Under the pieces are notes generated by a model, which saw nothing but the letters and a program-made list of their open reading frames with translations, was not told the origin of the DNA and made no database searches. Position numbers and translations under genes: made by a program. Of a stretch of DNA of 48,677 nucleotides, positions 34,122-42,079 are shown piece by piece (the stretch's first letter is position 1; each line of letters begins with the position of its first letter). This stretch comes from Planctomycetaceae bacterium. Its GTDB lineage: Bacteria > Planctomycetota > Planctomycetia > Pirellulales > Pirellulaceae. Location: the NCBI GenBank assembly GCA_021298315.1, contig JAJTFC010000027.1, positions 1-48,677 of the forward strand, given 5' to 3'.

Positions 34122-35588
34122 TTAGACTAGGATATCACGGATCACTTTTCCATGATCGATATCGAGCCTCTTCCTGCCAGGGATTTCAAGTTTCCGGGAC
34201 TCTATCCCCAAAAGGTGCAGGACGGTGGCATGCAAATCCGTTACGTAGTGGCCGTCTCCTAAAGCATGGTAGCCGAGTTCGTCGGTTTGACCGTGTACAA
34301 ATCCTTGCTTGATACCCGCACCTGCCATCCAAATAGTAAATCCGTTGGGATGGTGGTCTCGTCCGTCGACCCCACCGCTGCGTCGCTCCAAACCGGGCGT
34401 GCGCCCAAATTCCGTACAAAAAACCACGACCGTCGATTCGAGCATCCCTCGTTGCTTGAGATCTGTGATCAGACCTGCAATCGGTAAATCGACGCTCGCA
34501 CAGAGCTTTGTGTGATTCTCTTTGAGCTTTTGATGGGAATCCCAAACTCCGTAGGCCGACGGGAAAACTTGGACAAAGCGAACCCCACGCTCGACCAATC
34601 GTCTTGCAGCCAAAAATCGCTCGCCAGCGACCTTCGTAGCTTCTTGGTCCAAACCGTAGAGTTTGCGAGTTTGCTCTGTCTCACTGGCCATATCGATCGC
34701 TTCAGGAACCGAAGCCTGCATTCGAAAAGCCAGCTCATAGGCTTTGATCCGAGCTCGTAGCTCATCATCCTCAGGGTACTCAGCACCCAAGAGTCCGTTG
34801 AGCTTACCGATCAATTCATACTCTTTGGCTTGCTCCCGAGCCGATTGCTTGTCAAAACGCTGACCGAATGGAAGCGGATTCTTCGGATCGAGTGTCAATG
34901 GCACCCCCGCATGCTGTGGTCCAAGATAGTAGGAATCGATCGACTGCCGCGTGTCAGATCTTGTAGGACCACCTAGCACGACAAACTTCGGTAGGTTTTC
35001 ATTGAAGCTACCTAAGCCGTAGTTTGCCCAAGCCCCGATGCTCGGCTGCGGCTCATCGAGCCGATGTCGACCGGTATGAATTTGGTTCTCTGCCGCGTGG
35101 TCGTTGTCGGTCGTCCACATGTTGCGCACGAAGCACAACTGATCGATCTGTTGGCTCAAATGGGGCCACCAATCGGTCACCTCGATTCCGCTCTGGCCGC
35201 ATTTCTTCCAGCCTACCTGCATAGGATAAATCGTCGGGTAAACATCTCGAACATTGATCTCTTGGGCAGGCACCGAACGAAACCGCTTCTTGTGAAGCGG
35301 AGAATCAACCGGGTTAGCAAACGGCGTTTGATCAAAGGTCTTACCCGCATGCTCGTTGAGTGCCGGCTTGGGATCAAACGTCTCGACATGGCTATAGCCC
35401 CCCGAGAGAAAAACCCATATCACACTCTTGGCTTTCGGCTCGAGCACCCTTTGGCCTTCCCGAAACGAGTCTGCGTGATCGTCTGCTCCCCGAGCTATCC
35501 GGTCATCGGCAAGCATCGACCCCAAAGCCAAACCGGTAAAGCCCATCCCATAGTCGGCTAGGAACATTCTCCGATTGCCAATCGCCAT
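34122..35588 (-). CDS. DUF1501 protein with Tat-like signal
   Basis: A 488-residue protein of the planctomycete-rich DUF1501 family, which has a sulfatase/alkaline-phosphatase-like fold. The N-terminus has NRRMFL and then a hydrophobic stretch, as in Tat substrates. Family blocks are VIWVFLSGGYSHVETFDPKP, MWTTDNDHAAENQIHTGRH, VVVFCTEFGRTPGLE, and DGRDHHPNGFTIWMAGAGIKQGF. The last of these is the metal-site-like histidine cluster. DUF1501 genes usually sit directly downstream of PSCyt/PSD1 genes, and here too it starts 16 bp after the stop of that gene. The ATG at 35588 is chosen because it puts the Tat motif at the N-terminus; longer frames overlap the upstream gene. Confidence 0.9.
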   Translation of the reverse strand: MAIGNRRMFLADYGMGFTGLALGSMLADDRIARGADDHADSFREGQRVLEPKAKSVIWVFLSGGYSHVETFDPKPALNEHAGKTFDQTPFANPVDSPLHKKRFRSVPAQEINVRDVYPTIYPMQVGWKKCGQSGIEVTDWWPHLSQQIDQLCFVRNMWTTDNDHAAENQIHTGRHRLDEPQPSIGAWANYGLGSFNENLPKFVVLGGPTRSDTRQSIDSYYLGPQHAGVPLTLDPKNPLPFGQRFDKQSAREQAKEYELIGKLNGLLGAEYPEDDELRARIKAYELAFRMQASVPEAIDMASETEQTRKLYGLDQEATKVAGERFLAARRLVERGVRFVQVFPSAYGVWDSHQKLKENHTKLCASVDLPIAGLITDLKQRGMLESTVVVFCTEFGRTPGLERRSGGVDGRDHHPNGFTIWMAGAGIKQGFVHGQTDELGYHALGDGHYVTDLHATVLHLLGIESRKLEIPGRKRLDIDHGKVIRDILV

Positions 35589-35604: not shown

Positions 35605-38600
35605 TCAACGGATCGTGATAAAGTCGCTATGGTTGAGCAAGACTCGAACCAGACTTGCACGCAGCGACTGCGTTTGTGTTGTATCGCTTAGATAATCTCG
35701 ACATAACACACTTTCCTGCGGACTCGGAACTCGACCCAAGATCGTTTGGTAAACTGCATCGACAAAACGATCGGAATTCGTCTGAAAATCCGGGGGCAAT
35801 CGAGATTCGATTTGTTGGGCAATCAAGGGACTGAGCTCATGCACCAAAGAACTATTGGTCAGGGCCAATGACTGCTGCGGAATGACGGTTCGAGTTCGTC
35901 GGTAGCAGTCGCTCGCATCGGGCCCATCAAAAAGCATTCCCAAGGAACTCTTTCCATCCTCCTCCGGTTGGCAGCAGTAGTAGAGACTCCTTCGCCAAGT
36001 CGTAAAGATATCTTTGTTCTCGAGTTCTTGCCCCCCCATCGACGGATCTAACTTGCCGGCAAGTTGCAGGATCGAGTCCCTGAGGACCTCGACCTCCATG
36101 CGACCTGGGTTCATCCGCCAATACCAACGATTCTCAGGATCTGTTGTTTGCGATGGATTACCGCTAACCGAGGATTGCCTCTGATAAGCTTCACTCGTGA
36201 CGATCAAGCGGTGAAGATGCTTAATACTCCATCCGGATTCCATGAACTCAACGGCCAACCAATCGAGCAACTCCGGATGGCTTGGACGGGTTCCGTTTCG
36301 TCCAAAATCGAACACAGTTTTGACAAGCGGTTGTTGAAAGTGCCTCATCCAAAGATGGTTTACCCCAACCCGTGCTGTCAAAGGATTCTTCGCGGAGGTG
36401 ATCCAGCTTGCCAATGCCCTTCGGCGACCGGTACTTGTTTTTGGATACTGGGTCGAAAGCGGTTTGTAATTGGCCTTCGAAGCCTCTGCTTTCTGAGCTT
36501 GATCCTTGAGATGCCCGGCTGCTTCCAACTCCGCTTGAGCCTTCGCCAATCCTAAGCTTGCAGTTTCGATTTGCTTGGCTCGATTCGGATCCTCAGGAGT
36601 AATAGCCTCGGCTTGAGCCAATTGTTCCTGGGCGATGCTCCAATGATAGAACTTTTTCTGCCACTCACTAGCCTTCTCTTGGATACTAGCCTGATGCGAG
36701 AGCCTATCGATACCCTCGGCTGTTGCATGCAACTCAGGAAGGTATTTGGCTCGTTCGGCTTTTATTCGCGAGTTGATCTCATTGCAACTGGATTGCTTCC
36801 AAAGGACTTTCGCCTCGGCGATTTGAAGCTTCATTCCGATCCGATCTGCTGCTCTCTTGGCTACGCTGAACTCTTTGTAAAGTTTGCTAAGTGCCATAGA
36901 AGGCAATTTGCGAACAACTTTCGAACTGGCTGGAGCGATCGAGTAATCTTGGGCTGATACCCAGCCGAGACTTCCTACCAATTCGCTGTTTTCGGCATGC
37001 TTGTCGGCTTCGAAGGAGAACCCAAGAATTGATGCAACCGATCCGTCCTGCTGCGACTGGGCTCTTGCGTAACTCCAGTCGTCAACGACCGCAACACAAC
37101 CGGTTCTCGCATCCAACAAGATCCCTTTGGCAGGATCACCAACGGGATTCCAACCGTTCAAAGCGATCTTTACACCCTCGACAAGCAATCGTTGATCAGG
37201 AAGCGAAATGACTCTCAAGATGCACTGATCTGCATCCGGATGCAGAGTCATTTCCACTTGGATCGTTTGATCACGATCCGGGTCGAATCGCCCCACTTCA
37301 AACTCATCAAACGAGGATGGCTTGTAGGATTTGATCAAGCCTTTTTCGAAACCCACATAGGTGGCAGTCGCTCCCGTCGAACTATTGCGGGTAAGCTGGA
37401 AGTTAAAGTGCGTATCGGCCAAAATTCGAACCAGAAATCGGACTTGATCCCCTTGCTCAACGGATGGGACTTCCGGTACGGCCCGGTAGATCATCCGCCT
37501 TCCTTCTGACGCATCCATCAAAAGGGATTGCTCGCCTGAGAGGGCTAAACTCTTGGATGATCCCTCTTGATTTTCAAGATCCTTGATTTGATTTTGAATC
37601 TGTTCGACCCGTTGCACATTCTTTTGCTGATCCAACTGGGTTTGCTCGATGGCCATCAGAGCATCATAAGCTTGCTGAAGTTGGTCTTTTTCCTTGACTG
37701 CGTCGGCGAGTTCTTGATCCGTCTGCTGAAGGATCGTTTCGATGATTTGCGGATCTAGACCGGGATACCAAGCCTGCGGCGGCAAAGGGACATTCTGGAT
37801 TTCCTGCTCATAAGCTGCTTTTAAGAACCCCGGCACATCGGGCCGAATCGAACCTCGGTCGGTTTGCCGATTTCGCTCGTCCCCACCGGTGTAGAACCAT
37901 GTCGGTGACTCTGGGGACTTGTCATAGATGCTAACCCGGCCGAGCCTCTGCACTTTCCGAAGCGTACTGTATTCGTACTCTTGAAATGGCCCTGGATCTG
38001 CTTGTCCAGCCAATCGATCTTGCCGGACTGCAATCGGCTCGAAAAAAGCTCGAAACTGAAAATAGTTCTCCTGCGAAATCGGATCGTACTTATGATCGTG
38101 GCAATGAGCGCAGTGAAACGTTAACCCCAGGAAAGCTTTGCTCACATGCTCGACATTGCTTCGCATCCAGTCGTTGGGATTTAAGGCGTACCAGTTACGG
38201 ATCAAGTACCCCGTTGCAACGTTTGACTTTGGATCCCCAGGTTTGATCTCATCGGCTGCGAGCATCTCGCGGATCATTTGGTCATACCCAAGATCTTCGT
38301 TAAGCGAATCGACGATCCAATCTCGCCACCGCCATATCTGTGGTGCACTGTTCCAGACATCCGGTACATACCGACGGCCAAACCAATCTGCATACCGCCA
38401 GACATCCATCCAGTGCCTGGCCCAACGCTCGCCATACTGCGGAGAAGCCAAAAGATCATCCACAAACTTTTCATAAGCGACCTTAGAAGGATCCGCTACG
38501 AATCGCTCGATGGCTTCTGGACTCGGGGGTAGTCCCACCAAGTCCAAATGCAATCGACGAAGTCGCGTGGCCGCATCGGCTTGTCCTTGCGGCACCACTG

Positions 38601-40422
38601 CTTGTACTTTCCACTGGGCTTCGATAAAAGCATCGATGGGATGAGCAGAAAGATTTTCTATGCTTGGAACCGTCGATCGCCTCGGTAGCTTGAATGCCCA
38701 GTGCTCATTAGGATCCGGTTCGGGTTGATCTTCGGAGGGAATGGCTGCACCTTGGTCGATCCAAGCGGCTATCGCTTGAACTTGGGAATCCTCAAGTGCG
38801 TGACCTTCCGGAGGCATTCGCAAGAGGGGATCCTTCGAAGTGATTCGCTGCACAAGAAGGCTTTTGGTCGAATCGTTAGGCACGATCACAGCGCCCGAAT
38901 CGCTCCCCTGGCGAATCGAGGCCGCAGTGTCTAATCGCAGACCTGATTCCTGTTTCAAAGCTCCATGGCATGCAAAGCAGCGTTGCTCGAAGATCCCACG
39001 TAGATCCTTGCGAAAATCCACTTGCCTGGTCTCATCAGTCCGAAATTCGATGGCATAGAGATCCGCATCCTTCAATTCGAAGCGAGCTCGAATCGGCTGT
39101 CCCATAAGCTTCCGCATGTCCGGGGTAGACTTCCAGTGGACCTGTGCCTCAATCGCATCGCCGACAAATGCTTGGCTGTCCTCCAATCGAAACCCTTCGA
39201 TCGGTTCACCTTGAGGATCGACCAACTCGACGCGGATAGACCCCGCTGCGCTTGTCGAAGCATTGATGAGCAGCCGATCACCAGCCATCGTAAAGACCTT
39301 GGTCGTCATCCGTCCACCATCGGCATCGGCATGGACAGAAGCAAATCCATCGAGCCGTAGCGTAAACCTGCGAAACGGAGTCGTGTAAAGCGACATTTCT
39401 TCTGCACCGGTCTGCACGATATGCCAAGCTGCATAATTGGCGCGGTTTTCCCACCGCTGTGCATCCAATCCCGGTCTTAGCCATGCTTGGCGAAACGTAC
39501 GGTCGAAAGGCCCATCGCCCCTTGCGGTCATGAAAAGAATATCGGTTCTGTTGCTGGCGTTTGGAAAGAACCGCGTCGGAGTTGCGATGTAAATGTGCGG
39601 TGCTCGAAGATAAGGGTGCGTCAACGATGTATAGAGGTGTTCATCGGGTAGATTCGGACGCATCGCGATCGGCTCAGTCCACTGAATGAAATCTTTCGAA
39701 GTGGTTCGACAAATCGAACGGAGCTTGCCATCGAGGAAGTGCCTGAAGTAACAAACGTACATTTTTTCATAGGCAGACCAGAACGCAACATTCTGCGAGT
39801 CAAATGCGTATTCCTTGGTGTATTGAATCACCGGCTCATTTCGGATCTTCGACCAGCGAATTCCATCGGCCGATTCGAATGCGACTAAACCTGACTTGAT
39901 CGTTCCGGCTAAAGCTTTGAATCGACTCTCTTTGGGTGCGATTGGATTCTCGTCCAGAAAGGGTGCAAAATTATGGCAGAAGGGTGCCTCCTTGAGGATC
40001 ACATTGTTCTGTTTCGATCCGTCGAGTTCGATTAACCCCAGTTCGGGTTTCGTCCAATGGATACCGTCTTTACTTTCGCAGTAGCGAGTAACCTCTGTGT
40101 CATCTCCGTCAAATTTCGCACCTCGACCTTCGCGAGTGTACATGCGATACACAGGACCATCATGGATAATTGTGCCGTACTCCATAGCGTCGGCCGGTTG
40201 GGCCATCGCCTCAGTCGCCTTGGGCTCGTGCAACTTAAGACTCAGGCCTTCGAGGCTCTCAATGAGAAACCTGTCGACAAAGAGTTCTCTTCGATTGGAA
40301 AGCTCGATAGGTGTTTGAGAAAACCCGGTCGTTGCAACGACGATCCAGAGAATGAGACCTTGAATCCGTCGAATCCAAGGCTGAGGCCCCACAATGCAAC
40401 AAGTATTCAAGAGGCAGAGCAT
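35605..40422 (-). CDS. Glycosidase-like beta-propeller fused to PSCyt1-PSCyt2-PSD1 module
   Basis: A 1605-residue exported protein with a signal-like segment (residues about 17-36). Residues about 38-450 resemble the five-bladed propeller of GH32/43-type glycosidases: repeated DGIHW and DGIRW turns and a RELFVDRFLIE start. PSCyt1 follows, with a c-type heme motif CFACH near residue 481. PSCyt2/DUF1549 is next (DLVGLPPSPEAIERFV), ending in a CAHCHDHKYDP motif near 770. A coiled-coil-rich middle part of about 400 residues comes next. PSD1/DUF1553 covers about 1330-1600 (NPLTARVGVNHLWMRHFQQPLV; HRLIVTSEAYQRQS). The PSCyt/PSD1 and DUF1501 pairing is characteristic of planctomycetes and its function is unclear. 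The propeller fusion suggests a substrate-degrading role. A sulfatase gene is divergent across a 100 bp gap. Confidence 0.88.
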   Translation of the reverse strand: MLCLLNTCCIVGPQPWIRRIQGLILWIVVATTGFSQTPIELSNRRELFVDRFLIESLEGLSLKLHEPKATEAMAQPADAMEYGTIIHDGPVYRMYTREGRGAKFDGDDTEVTRYCESKDGIHWTKPELGLIELDGSKQNNVILKEAPFCHNFAPFLDENPIAPKESRFKALAGTIKSGLVAFESADGIRWSKIRNEPVIQYTKEYAFDSQNVAFWSAYEKMYVCYFRHFLDGKLRSICRTTSKDFIQWTEPIAMRPNLPDEHLYTSLTHPYLRAPHIYIATPTRFFPNASNRTDILFMTARGDGPFDRTFRQAWLRPGLDAQRWENRANYAAWHIVQTGAEEMSLYTTPFRRFTLRLDGFASVHADADGGRMTTKVFTMAGDRLLINASTSAAGSIRVELVDPQGEPIEGFRLEDSQAFVGDAIEAQVHWKSTPDMRKLMGQPIRARFELKDADLYAIEFRTDETRQVDFRKDLRGIFEQRCFACHGALKQESGLRLDTAASIRQGSDSGAVIVPNDSTKSLLVQRITSKDPLLRMPPEGHALEDSQVQAIAAWIDQGAAIPSEDQPEPDPNEHWAFKLPRRSTVPSIENLSAHPIDAFIEAQWKVQAVVPQGQADAATRLRRLHLDLVGLPPSPEAIERFVADPSKVAYEKFVDDLLASPQYGERWARHWMDVWRYADWFGRRYVPDVWNSAPQIWRWRDWIVDSLNEDLGYDQMIREMLAADEIKPGDPKSNVATGYLIRNWYALNPNDWMRSNVEHVSKAFLGLTFHCAHCHDHKYDPISQENYFQFRAFFEPIAVRQDRLAGQADPGPFQEYEYSTLRKVQRLGRVSIYDKSPESPTWFYTGGDERNRQTDRGSIRPDVPGFLKAAYEQEIQNVPLPPQAWYPGLDPQIIETILQQTDQELADAVKEKDQLQQAYDALMAIEQTQLDQQKNVQRVEQIQNQIKDLENQEGSSKSLALSGEQSLLMDASEGRRMIYRAVPEVPSVEQGDQVRFLVRILADTHFNFQLTRNSSTGATATYVGFEKGLIKSYKPSSFDEFEVGRFDPDRDQTIQVEMTLHPDADQCILRVISLPDQRLLVEGVKIALNGWNPVGDPAKGILLDARTGCVAVVDDWSYARAQSQQDGSVASILGFSFEADKHAENSELVGSLGWVSAQDYSIAPASSKVVRKLPSMALSKLYKEFSVAKRAADRIGMKLQIAEAKVLWKQSSCNEINSRIKAERAKYLPELHATAEGIDRLSHQASIQEKASEWQKKFYHWSIAQEQLAQAEAITPEDPNRAKQIETASLGLAKAQAELEAAGHLKDQAQKAEASKANYKPLSTQYPKTSTGRRRALASWITSAKNPLTARVGVNHLWMRHFQQPLVKTVFDFGRNGTRPSHPELLDWLAVEFMESGWSIKHLHRLIVTSEAYQRQSSVSGNPSQTTDPENRWYWRMNPGRMEVEVLRDSILQLAGKLDPSMGGQELENKDIFTTWRRSLYYCCQPEEDGKSSLGMLFDGPDASDCYRRTRTVIPQQSLALTNSSLVHELSPLIAQQIESRLPPDFQTNSDRFVDAVYQTILGRVPSPQESVLCRDYLSDTTQTQSLRASLVRVLLNHSDFITIR

Positions 40423-40522
40423 GGCCGGTGGTGGGGGTCGGGAGGGAAGGCTAAAATAGATCCCAAGAATTGTACCACAAAGAAATAGTGTTTTCCAAAA
40501 GGCCCGAATCAGGACTCAAATC

Positions 40523-42079
40523 ATGCAACACGACGCTTTGAAGGGAATCCTTTGGATCGCAGCCATTTGGATCTTATCGAACCTCTCGGTGGGACTTGCA
40601 CAAGACGCACTTAAGTCCTCGGAATCCATTTCGAAACCAAATTTCATCGTCATCCTTGCCGACGATTTAGGGTACGGAGATACAGGTTGCTATGGAGCCA
40701 AAACCATCCCAACCCCCAACATCGATCGACTTGCACAGCAAGGCATTCGATTCACCAGTGGCTACTGCTCGGCATCGACCTGCACGCCAACTCGCTATTC
40801 GTTGCTGACGGGAAAGTATGCCTTTAGGCAAAAGGGAACTGGAGTGGCACCACCCAATAGCCCCTCGATTATCCCCGCAGGAACCACAACCATTGCAAGC
40901 CTGCTGAAAACCGCCGGTTACAAAACCTCCGTCATCGGCAAATGGCATTTAGGCTTGGGAGGCCCCTCGGGACCAGATTGGAACGGCACACTCCGCCCAG
41001 GTCCCCTGGATTTTGGTTTCGACGAGTGCTTTTTACTACCAACGACCAACGACCGCGTTCCACAAGTCTTCGTCAAGAACGACAGAGTCTTGGACCTGGA
41101 TGCTTCAGATCCACTTTGGGTTGGCGATAAGAAACCAAGCGACAATCATCCGACGGGACAGACCCATCGGCGTGAACTAAAAATGAATTGGTCTCATGGC
41201 CATAATGCTACGATCCACAATGGAGTCAGCCGAATTGGGTTCTACACAGGTGGCACCAAGGCTAGGTTTCGAGACGAAGATCTTTCGGATCATTGGGTTC
41301 GAGAAGCAGACAGATGGATACGAGCCCATCGATCTGAGCCGTTCTTTTTGTATTTCTGTTCGCATGCGATCCACGTCCCTCGAATCGTCCACGAAAGATT
41401 CGCCGGAACTACCAAACATGGCCCACGAGGGGATGCGATCGTTGAATTCGATTGGTCGGTCGGTCAGATCATCGAGACCCTCAAGGATTGCAATCTCGAT
41501 AAAAACACATTGATTCTCCTATGCAGCGACAATGGGCCTGTTCTCGATGACGGGTACGAAGACCGAGCTATCGAGGATCTAGGGGATCACGATCCTAATG
41601 GGCCTTTTCGCGGCGGTAAATACAATGTCTTCGAAGGTGGACTACGCACGCCGATGATCGCATGGTGGCCGGGGAAATTAACTCCTCGCGTGAGCGATCA
41701 AATCATTTGCATCGTCGATTACCCAAGAACGCTCGCAGCCCTGGCTGGATTGCAAGTCGATCCTAAGGATTGTCCAGACAGTGTCGATTTGAGCCGATTA
41801 CTACTAGACCCCAACGGGAAGGGAAGAGACAGCTTAGTCGTCCAGGACAACGGCCAATCGGGCAGCTTCGGTTACCGAGAAGGGCGGTGGAAATTGGTCC
41901 GGTGCGATTCCCAACGCGCCAACAATGTCGAGCTACGACTCACGCCGACCAAAGTCCCAAAGTATCAACTGTTTGACTTGGAGGTCGATCCTGGCGAAAG
42001 TATTGATCTGCTTGAGAAAAACCCCGAGCAGGCTCGGGGCATGATAGAGCGATTGCAAAAGACCATTGATCTGCAATGA
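40523..42079 (+). CDS. Formylglycine-dependent sulfatase (arylsulfatase A-like)
   Basis: A 518-residue type I sulfatase with a signal peptide (about residues 1-27, ending LSVGLAQ). The metal-binding aspartates are in LADDLGYGDTGCYG (Asp47, Asp48). The maturation motif CTPTR (Cys87) is the CxPxR recognised by formylglycine-generating enzyme. The later GKWHLGLGG and CSDNGPVL motifs supply further active-site residues. It likely removes sulfate from a polysaccharide or aryl sulfate outside the cytoplasm. The gene sits back to back with the propeller-PSCyt1 gene and ends 11 bp from the convergent DUF1559 gene. Confidence 0.95.
   Translation: MQHDALKGILWIAAIWILSNLSVGLAQDALKSSESISKPNFIVILADDLGYGDTGCYGAKTIPTPNIDRLAQQGIRFTSGYCSASTCTPTRYSLLTGKYAFRQKGTGVAPPNSPSIIPAGTTTIASLLKTAGYKTSVIGKWHLGLGGPSGPDWNGTLRPGPLDFGFDECFLLPTTNDRVPQVFVKNDRVLDLDASDPLWVGDKKPSDNHPTGQTHRRELKMNWSHGHNATIHNGVSRIGFYTGGTKARFRDEDLSDHWVREADRWIRAHRSEPFFLYFCSHAIHVPRIVHERFAGTTKHGPRGDAIVEFDWSVGQIIETLKDCNLDKNTLILLCSDNGPVLDDGYEDRAIEDLGDHDPNGPFRGGKYNVFEGGLRTPMIAWWPGKLTPRVSDQIICIVDYPRTLAALAGLQVDPKDCPDSVDLSRLLLDPNGKGRDSLVVQDNGQSGSFGYREGRWKLVRCDSQRANNVELRLTPTKVPKYQLFDLEVDPGESIDLLEKNPEQARGMIERLQKTIDLQ

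Follow-up and report, generated by a model that had tools for sequence, protein, structure and literature searches.

We report the analysis of a 48,677-nucleotide stretch of planctomycete DNA (the window; Planctomycetaceae bacterium, assembly GCA_021298315.1, contig JAJTFC010000027.1), in which a single open frame of 1605 residues on the reverse strand, 35605-40422, joins a glycoside hydrolase (GH)-type beta-propeller to the known PSCyt1-PSCyt2-PSD1 module. The fusion is real and inherited, forming a single clade within the genus. Because the fusion is conserved, and because the same parts stand as an unfused operon in sister species, we conclude that the propeller and the PSCyt/PSD1 parts very probably work together. 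We tentatively favour, at somewhat short of an even chance, the account that the gene encodes a single-chain, exported, carbohydrate-processing redox protein.

A link of PSCyt proteins to carbohydrate, and their sulfatase neighbourhoods, are already in print. In the sections consulted of He et al. 2017 (PMC5615132), on freshwater Verrucomicrobia, these proteins are proposed for carbohydrate, sulfatase neighbours are frequent and, if the proteins do take part in carbohydrate degradation, they are suggested to work on mono- or oligomers that the cell has taken up. The Verrucomicrobia proteins resemble the one described here in that the same module carries carbohydrate-related domains, but those named in the same sections are LamG, Bac_rhamnosid_N, NPCBM, CBM_6, PA14, Big_2, WD40 and F5/8, with no GH-type propeller fusion among them. 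In R. baltica each PSCyt/PSD1 domain is counted 41 times (PMC2754498, in part), and the portions seen of the literature cited, which also includes extracts of PMC8567305 and PMC11495043 and, on DUF1080, of PMC9007349 and PMC5673643, give the function of PSCyt/PSD1 as unknown. A survey of the literature on PSCyt, DUF1549, DUF1553 and DUF1501, drawn mostly from titles and abstracts and with most subscription journals outside its scope, found neither a GH-type propeller fusion nor a tested function for the module.

The fused protein reads, in order, export signal, propeller, beta-sandwich, PSCyt1, PSCyt2, lectin-like insert and PSD1, all on the reverse strand. The putative export signal of the whole protein (residues 1-36; 40315..40422) was recognised by eye from the translation as a basic and then a hydrophobic stretch. 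The predicted five-bladed, GH-like propeller (residues 38-372; 39307..40311), for which the evidence comes from AlphaFold2, Foldseek and profile matches, is followed by a beta-sandwich (residues 373-466; 39025..39306) that appears as long strands in the AlphaFold2 model and belongs to the standalone propeller family too. A Pfam scan of the 1605 residues gave no match within the first 470. Beyond them, all three domains that an earlier note on this DNA had read in the frame score far above their cut-offs: PSCyt1 68 bits (cut-off 22), PSCyt2 246.5 (29.8) and PSD1 254.9 (28.5). The PSCyt1 c-type cytochrome domain (residues 477-557; 38752..38994) matches PF07635 over 482-540 (E 1.1e-18) and PF00034 over 477-557 (E 1.9e-6), PSCyt2/DUF1549 (residues 595-797; 38032..38640) matches PF07583 (E 3.2e-73) and PSD1/DUF1553 (residues 1333-1577; 35692..36426) matches PF07587 (E 9.5e-76). 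The same note spoke of one c-type heme motif; such a motif is present, but there are two, CFACH in PSCyt1 (residues 482-486; 38965..38979) and CAHCH in PSCyt2 (residues 771-775; 38098..38112), so the protein is potentially diheme. In an alignment of 48 PSCyt/PSD1 proteins both cysteines and the histidine of CAHCH are invariant.

Directly downstream on the same strand lies the DUF1501 gene that had also been claimed (34122..35588, PF07394 E 8.5e-124), separated from the fused gene by 16 bp if the probable ATG at 35588 is taken as its start; its N-terminus, MAIGNRRMFL, resembles a twin-arginine export signal. With its domains, both CxxCH motifs and the downstream DUF1501 gene, a customary but not essential companion, the protein is a member of the PSCyt/PSD1 (DUF1549/DUF1553) family. 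It shares with other PSCyt1-PSCyt2-PSD1 proteins (PF07635, PF07583, PF07587) the order of the three domains, the two CxxCH motifs and the downstream DUF1501 gene, but differs from them in carrying a GH-like propeller and sandwich in the place of the signal peptide of the split form.

The earlier note had described the first 400 residues as a five-bladed glycosidase propeller, and proposed that the first 450 be compared alone with the GH families. AlphaFold2, run on an alignment of 83 sequences, gave a propeller model with a mean predicted local distance difference test (pLDDT) of 94.0 and a predicted template modelling score (pTM) of 0.92; the alignment was drawn from 92 listed copies, the window sequence standing in for its duplicate L001; the nine copies of greatest divergence were omitted, and three further copies were skipped for length. 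At E<=0.001 Foldseek matched 166 PDB chains to this model; the best match (E 3.9e-9) is an endo-levanase, and the top 50 are mostly enzymes that we take, partly from general knowledge, to be of the GH32, GH43 and GH130 types, together with a few non-GH chains (a lyase, a deacetylase, a phage portal-tail chain and a dynein chain). The template modelling (TM) scores lie near 0.4 on the query and reach 0.57 on the shorter mannan phosphorylase chains. In a profile search, part of the domain also matched one sucrose-6-phosphate hydrolase and a pair of mannan phosphorylases (E 4e-5 to 7e-5). A GH-type propeller fold is thus predicted for the N-terminal domain; it ends near residue 372, short of the extent proposed, with the sandwich continuing to 466, and the number of blades would be five, as judged from the strand list and the families matched.

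Profile libraries place the domain less readily. The propeller domain of the window has no Pfam match at E<=0.1, including to PF00251 (GH32), GH43, GH62, GH117 and GH130, and its two NCBIfam matches lie far below cut-off, one of them, to a beta-1,2-mannosidase model, at 11.9 bits where 550 are required. Among the 83 aligned copies, PF00251 is matched by 9 (best E 3.8e-5) and an NCBIfam model for beta-1,2-mannobiose phosphorylase by 50 at E<=0.1, with the window domain outside that number. The likeness to the levanases, inulinases and invertases of what we take to be GH32 consists in the best Foldseek matches and in a profile match to 7vco at E 4.3e-5; GH32 enzymes have a propeller followed by a beta-sandwich, as does the window domain, but the domain differs in having no Pfam match at E<=0.1. 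With the beta-1,2-mannan phosphorylases and mannosidases, presumably GH130, one blade bearing an SKDGI-type turn aligns, Foldseek TM-scores reach 0.57 on the shorter phosphorylase chains and many propeller relatives match the mannobiose phosphorylase model, although at E<=0.1 the window domain itself does not. Charged residues are strongly conserved in the 83-row alignment (E81 in 79, D157 and D208 in 82 each, R227 in all 83) and all four are kept in the four fused proteins compared. The top phmmer match of the N-terminal part, the sensor QseC (2kse, E 1.9e-4), was taken as chance because it spans the signal peptide and first blade and is absent from the profile search; QseC recurs only as a very weak NCBIfam match in two of the 83 members.

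The earlier note had asked whether the fusion might be an assembly artefact. When residues 340-570 were used as a junction query on 27 genomes of the genus, 26 gave some match and five gave one over the whole junction (G000, G149, G151, G153 and G154), each with a single frame of about 1630-1650 residues. Recurrence in four other genomes of the genus therefore excludes an artefact. In 392 sampled genomes of the phylum only the window's own genome matches over the whole junction, in a search that scored at most seven candidates per genome and that very different propeller fusions could escape; a few other matches extend past the sandwich, but through stop codons. Three of the 79 propeller loci drawn from a wider collection are fused (L002-L004). 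The five fused copies group as one clade on a tree of 118 rows (Shimodaira-Hasegawa-like approximate likelihood ratio test, SH-aLRT, 100), and the split copy of G010 comes next; the tree was built by a quick procedure after removal of duplicates and of copies that were too short or too long, and we rely on it only for the unity of the fused clade. Its 'near' labels require 13 changes against a shuffled mean of 16.1, a count that includes loci fetched for PSCyt.

In G010 (L110) the propeller (a 497-residue frame), PSCyt1-PSCyt2-PSD1 (a 1219-residue frame) and DUF1501 are separate genes; the first two open frames overlap, with the probable ATG of the second lying just beyond the stop of the first. 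G074 (L140) has the same unfused order on a contig that starts inside the propeller gene. The PSCyt1 protein of the split form has, by eye, a hydrophobic, signal-like stretch of its own, whereas in the five fused proteins only seven residues lie between the last Phe of the sandwich and the VDFR that opens PSCyt1. The stretch bearing the cytochrome's own signal peptide is absent from the fused form, and the N-terminal signal of the propeller would therefore have to serve alone for the export of both halves. When the window propeller is compared with those of three other fused proteins, the nonsynonymous divergence (dN) is 0.10-0.12 while the proportion of synonymous differences (pS) is 0.70-0.75, near saturation. 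Compared part by part with the four other fused proteins, identity is 84-86% in the propeller, 67-75% in the sandwich, 64-71% in PSCyt1, 78-81% in PSCyt2, 51-59% in the middle region and 72-79% in PSD1, and is about 88% between the DUF1501 neighbours across the fused loci. Judged by these values, the propeller, PSCyt2/PSD1 and DUF1501 are the most constrained parts.

The association of the three components extends beyond the fused genes. Both split loci and all four of the other fused loci likewise have a downstream DUF1501 gene, and propeller, PSCyt and DUF1501 genes also stand unfused in this order in G040 (L132), as they do in three further genomes of the family, from one genus (L170, L172, L177). 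Gemmataceae loci L006, L007 and L010 show an alternative order, PSCyt-DUF1501-propeller. Among 30 loci with the nearest PSCyt modules, five are fused and five have a propeller gene directly upstream; at the other 20 no propeller gene was seen within the short flanks, some of which are cut by contig ends. Of 82 unfused propeller genes, 9 have a PSCyt/PSD1 or DUF1501 gene as a tight same-strand neighbour, compared with 10 of 348 control genes (Fisher p 0.004, kinship not corrected). A separate scan of 112 propeller-gene neighbours found DUF1501 (10) and Sulfatase (8) to be the two commonest families; PF06439 occurs in three of these 112. In the window genome itself, 44 of the 62 PSD1 matches are followed within 1.5 kb by a same-strand DUF1501 gene.

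The AlphaFold2 model of PSCyt1-PSCyt2-PSD1 (21 sequences, mean pLDDT 75.6) has helical PSCyt2 and PSD1 domains and, between coiled coils, a beta-sandwich. This lectin- or laminin-G-like insert (about residues 966-1170; 36913..37527) gave weak Foldseek matches to neurexin LNS domains, galectins and legume lectins (best E 2.7e-3), and a sequence search of the PSCyt/PSD1 part against PDB had no match at E<=1. The same search with DUF1501 yielded nothing useful, the best match being a GalNAc-6-sulfatase at E 0.53. Two DUF1501 genes elsewhere in the window genome (contigs C63 and C152) match the C-terminal third of the Sulfatase model weakly (E 7.7e-5 and 3.7e-4), both just below its cut-off. We take it as a hint that DUF1501 may belong to the alkaline phosphatase/sulfatase superfamily.

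A sulfatase gene does lie divergent to the fused gene, as had been claimed: it starts at 40523 on the forward strand (40523..42079, 518 residues), 100 bp from the start of the fused gene (spacer 40423..40522), and matches PF00884 at E 5.5e-54 (183.9 bits, cut-off 25). The CTPTR in its translation fits what we take to be the CxPxR motif of an S1-type sulfatase. Sulfatases are over-represented as direct neighbours of propeller genes, making up 10 of 150 such neighbours against 5 of 471 other genes at these loci (p 0.0005, without correction for kinship); the comparison covered loci L005-L080, with genes called by a simple procedure and sulfatases recognised by a home-made model. Among the fused loci, however, the divergent sulfatase occurs at two of five, those of the window and of G151 (L143); none was detected upstream at L141, L142 or L144, the last with a flank of only 5.8 kb, nor at the split locus L110. 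Clustering of PSD1 genes with sulfatases in the window genome was tested and rejected. Of its 62 PSD1 matches, some of which are pieces of one gene, 2 lie within 3 kb of a sulfatase (3.3 expected from density), 3 within 5 kb (5.0) and 8 within 8 kb (7.6); the test used 40 of the 42 sulfatase matches, leaving out the two inside DUF1501 genes, with density taken from 37 genes. The sulfated polysaccharide of the earlier note thus keeps an enrichment at the level of the propeller family, and the tie to sulfated glycans is a hint about that family, not evidence for the window locus.

How might such a protein work? In sister species a GH-like propeller, PSCyt1-PSCyt2-PSD1 and DUF1501 are encoded by an operon of three genes, and in a single clade the first two are one gene. 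As we picture it, the fused chain would act in the periplasm, where the propeller, helped by the lectin-like insert, would hold and probably cleave a glycan or oligosaccharide, while two c-type hemes and the helical PSCyt2/PSD1 domains would pass electrons to that sugar or its product, or take them up from it. The DUF1501 protein, with its weak likeness to the alkaline phosphatase/sulfatase superfamily, might then remove or handle an ester or other leaving group, and the glycan may be sulfated, going by the family-level hint. In this scheme we infer heme attachment, sugar cleavage, redox action and the coupling of the two acts. We favour an exported redox protein of this kind because one frame carries all the domains, the fusion occurs in 5 of 27 genomes as one clade, the unfused operon exists, the propeller is of GH type with conserved charged residues and a low dN, a relative is fused to a GH39 domain (L137, described below), sulfatases are over-represented beside propeller genes and the tight same-strand neighbour test is positive. 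Several observations weigh against it. The modest TM-scores, and the rmsd (root-mean-square deviation) of about 18 A for the top Foldseek match, indicate likeness at the level of the fold and not close kinship; E81, D157 and D208 are candidate catalytic acids. The PSCyt1-PSCyt2-PSD1 model had no Foldseek match in PDB at E<=0.001, and no redox partner was identified. Most propeller genes, moreover, stand alone: of the 79 loci, 40 have full flanks, and among these 3 are fused and 4 have a same-strand PSCyt/PSD1 gene within 4 kb. In the comparison on loci L005-L080 that gave the sulfatase counts, unfused PSCyt genes on either strand are not enriched beside propeller genes, with 3 of 150 neighbours and 16 of 471 other genes (p 0.88), and DUF1501 genes, with 10 of 150 and 17 of 471 (p 0.09), show no more than a trend. 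We accordingly rejected enrichment of unfused PSCyt genes on either strand, the tight same-strand test, which includes DUF1501, being the only positive one. Finally, PSCyt/PSD1 proteins with plain binding domains exist, and the propeller could be one more of these.

That last point leads to a plausible rival, to which we give a somewhat lower probability: the propeller would be a binding module only, steering a PSCyt/PSD1-DUF1501 enzyme to its substrate, with all of the chemistry in PSCyt2/PSD1. The module takes many accessory domains, and the propeller would then stand alongside the laminin-G, F5/8, PA14, Ig-like and WD40 domains that other PSCyt proteins carry; the same kind of fusion is reported in Verrucomicrobia in the sections consulted of He et al. 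2017 (PMC5615132). Set against this are the many conserved charged residues of the standalone family and the sheer number of standalone copies (in 99 of 149 genomes of the family), by which the domain has work of its own. Presumably as in GH32 enzymes, a beta-sandwich follows the propeller, and this too speaks against a binding role alone. A chance fusion of two neighbours whose parts act separately, implying only shared export and co-expression, we consider unlikely: a single event would suffice for one clade, and the sampled phylum holds no other full junction match, but the fused form is kept in five genomes with synonymous sites near saturation among those compared, only a short linker joins the parts, the second signal peptide is missing, and related pairs adjoin in several other lineages. 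Least probable, in our estimate, is the combined redox and glycosidase machine for sulfated polysaccharide, acting with the divergent sulfatase, that the earlier note had envisaged. The family-level sulfatase enrichment and the divergent genes of the window and G151 speak for it, whereas the four loci at which an upstream sulfatase was not detected, the chance-level PSD1-sulfatase proximity and the genes at about 29-34 kb of the window, which by eye look like housekeeping genes (one is a lumazine synthase by Pfam) and not like a polysaccharide locus, do not. Of that note's reading as a whole, the glycosidase-type fold and the genuine fusion are supported, and the tie to sulfated glycans is supported in part.

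The single-chain carbohydrate-processing protein that we favour invites a wider reading, which we regard as improbable: that PSCyt/PSD1 and DUF1501 make up a periplasmic system for the oxidative breakdown of glycans, found widely in planctomycetes and Verrucomicrobia, of which the fusion would be a one-chain version. In that version the propeller would cleave a sugar oxidised by the diheme module, or the two steps would run in the opposite order, by analogy with 3-keto-glycoside pathways, in which a sugar dehydrogenase is coupled with a specialised hydrolase. PSCyt/PSD1 proteins come by dozens per genome and the propeller family is common, and the fusion, with the unfused operon in sister species, would narrow the guess at their function to carbohydrate work. 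A sugar-related role for the heme protein is made more likely and easier to test, and the fused protein, with a sugar-facing domain and both heme motifs on one chain, offers a compact object for that purpose.

The propeller family was sampled by a search of an 84,980-species collection, which found 98 relatives, the best 80 of which gave the 79 distinct loci; the window genome, about 90% complete, has one place only that the propeller search finds. Among the best 80 of the 98 relatives, the closest propellers outside the genus are those of Gemmataceae L006, L007 and L010, which carry about 340 extra N-terminal residues, with matches to BNR (sialidase-like) repeats lying partly therein. The family also appears in records named Larkinella, Membranihabitans, Treponema, Acidobacteria, Verrucomicrobia and Kiritimatiellae (L036, L044, L047, L074, L075 and others). 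At L137, 2354-5626, a propeller relative is fused to a GH39 domain (PF01229, E 4e-29), which would lend independent support to carbohydrate work.

The window genome also displays the variety of the PSCyt/PSD1 proteins themselves. Sixty PSCyt/PSD1 open reading frames were found, and the 48 scanned include 5 with Laminin_G_3, 4 with Big_2, 2 with F5_F8_type_C and 1 with PA14. A further PSCyt/PSD1 protein, very long and scanned separately, is encoded on contig C87 (L229) and bears WD40 repeats between its PSCyt1 and PSCyt2 domains. On contig C177 (L191/L238) the C-terminus of a PSCyt1-PSCyt2-PSD1 protein, in a reading frame cut by the end of the locus, matches the 3-keto-disaccharide hydrolase family PF06439 below its cut-off (22.9 against 26.8 bits); this match, if real, would tie the PSCyt/PSD1 module to 3-keto-sugar pathways.

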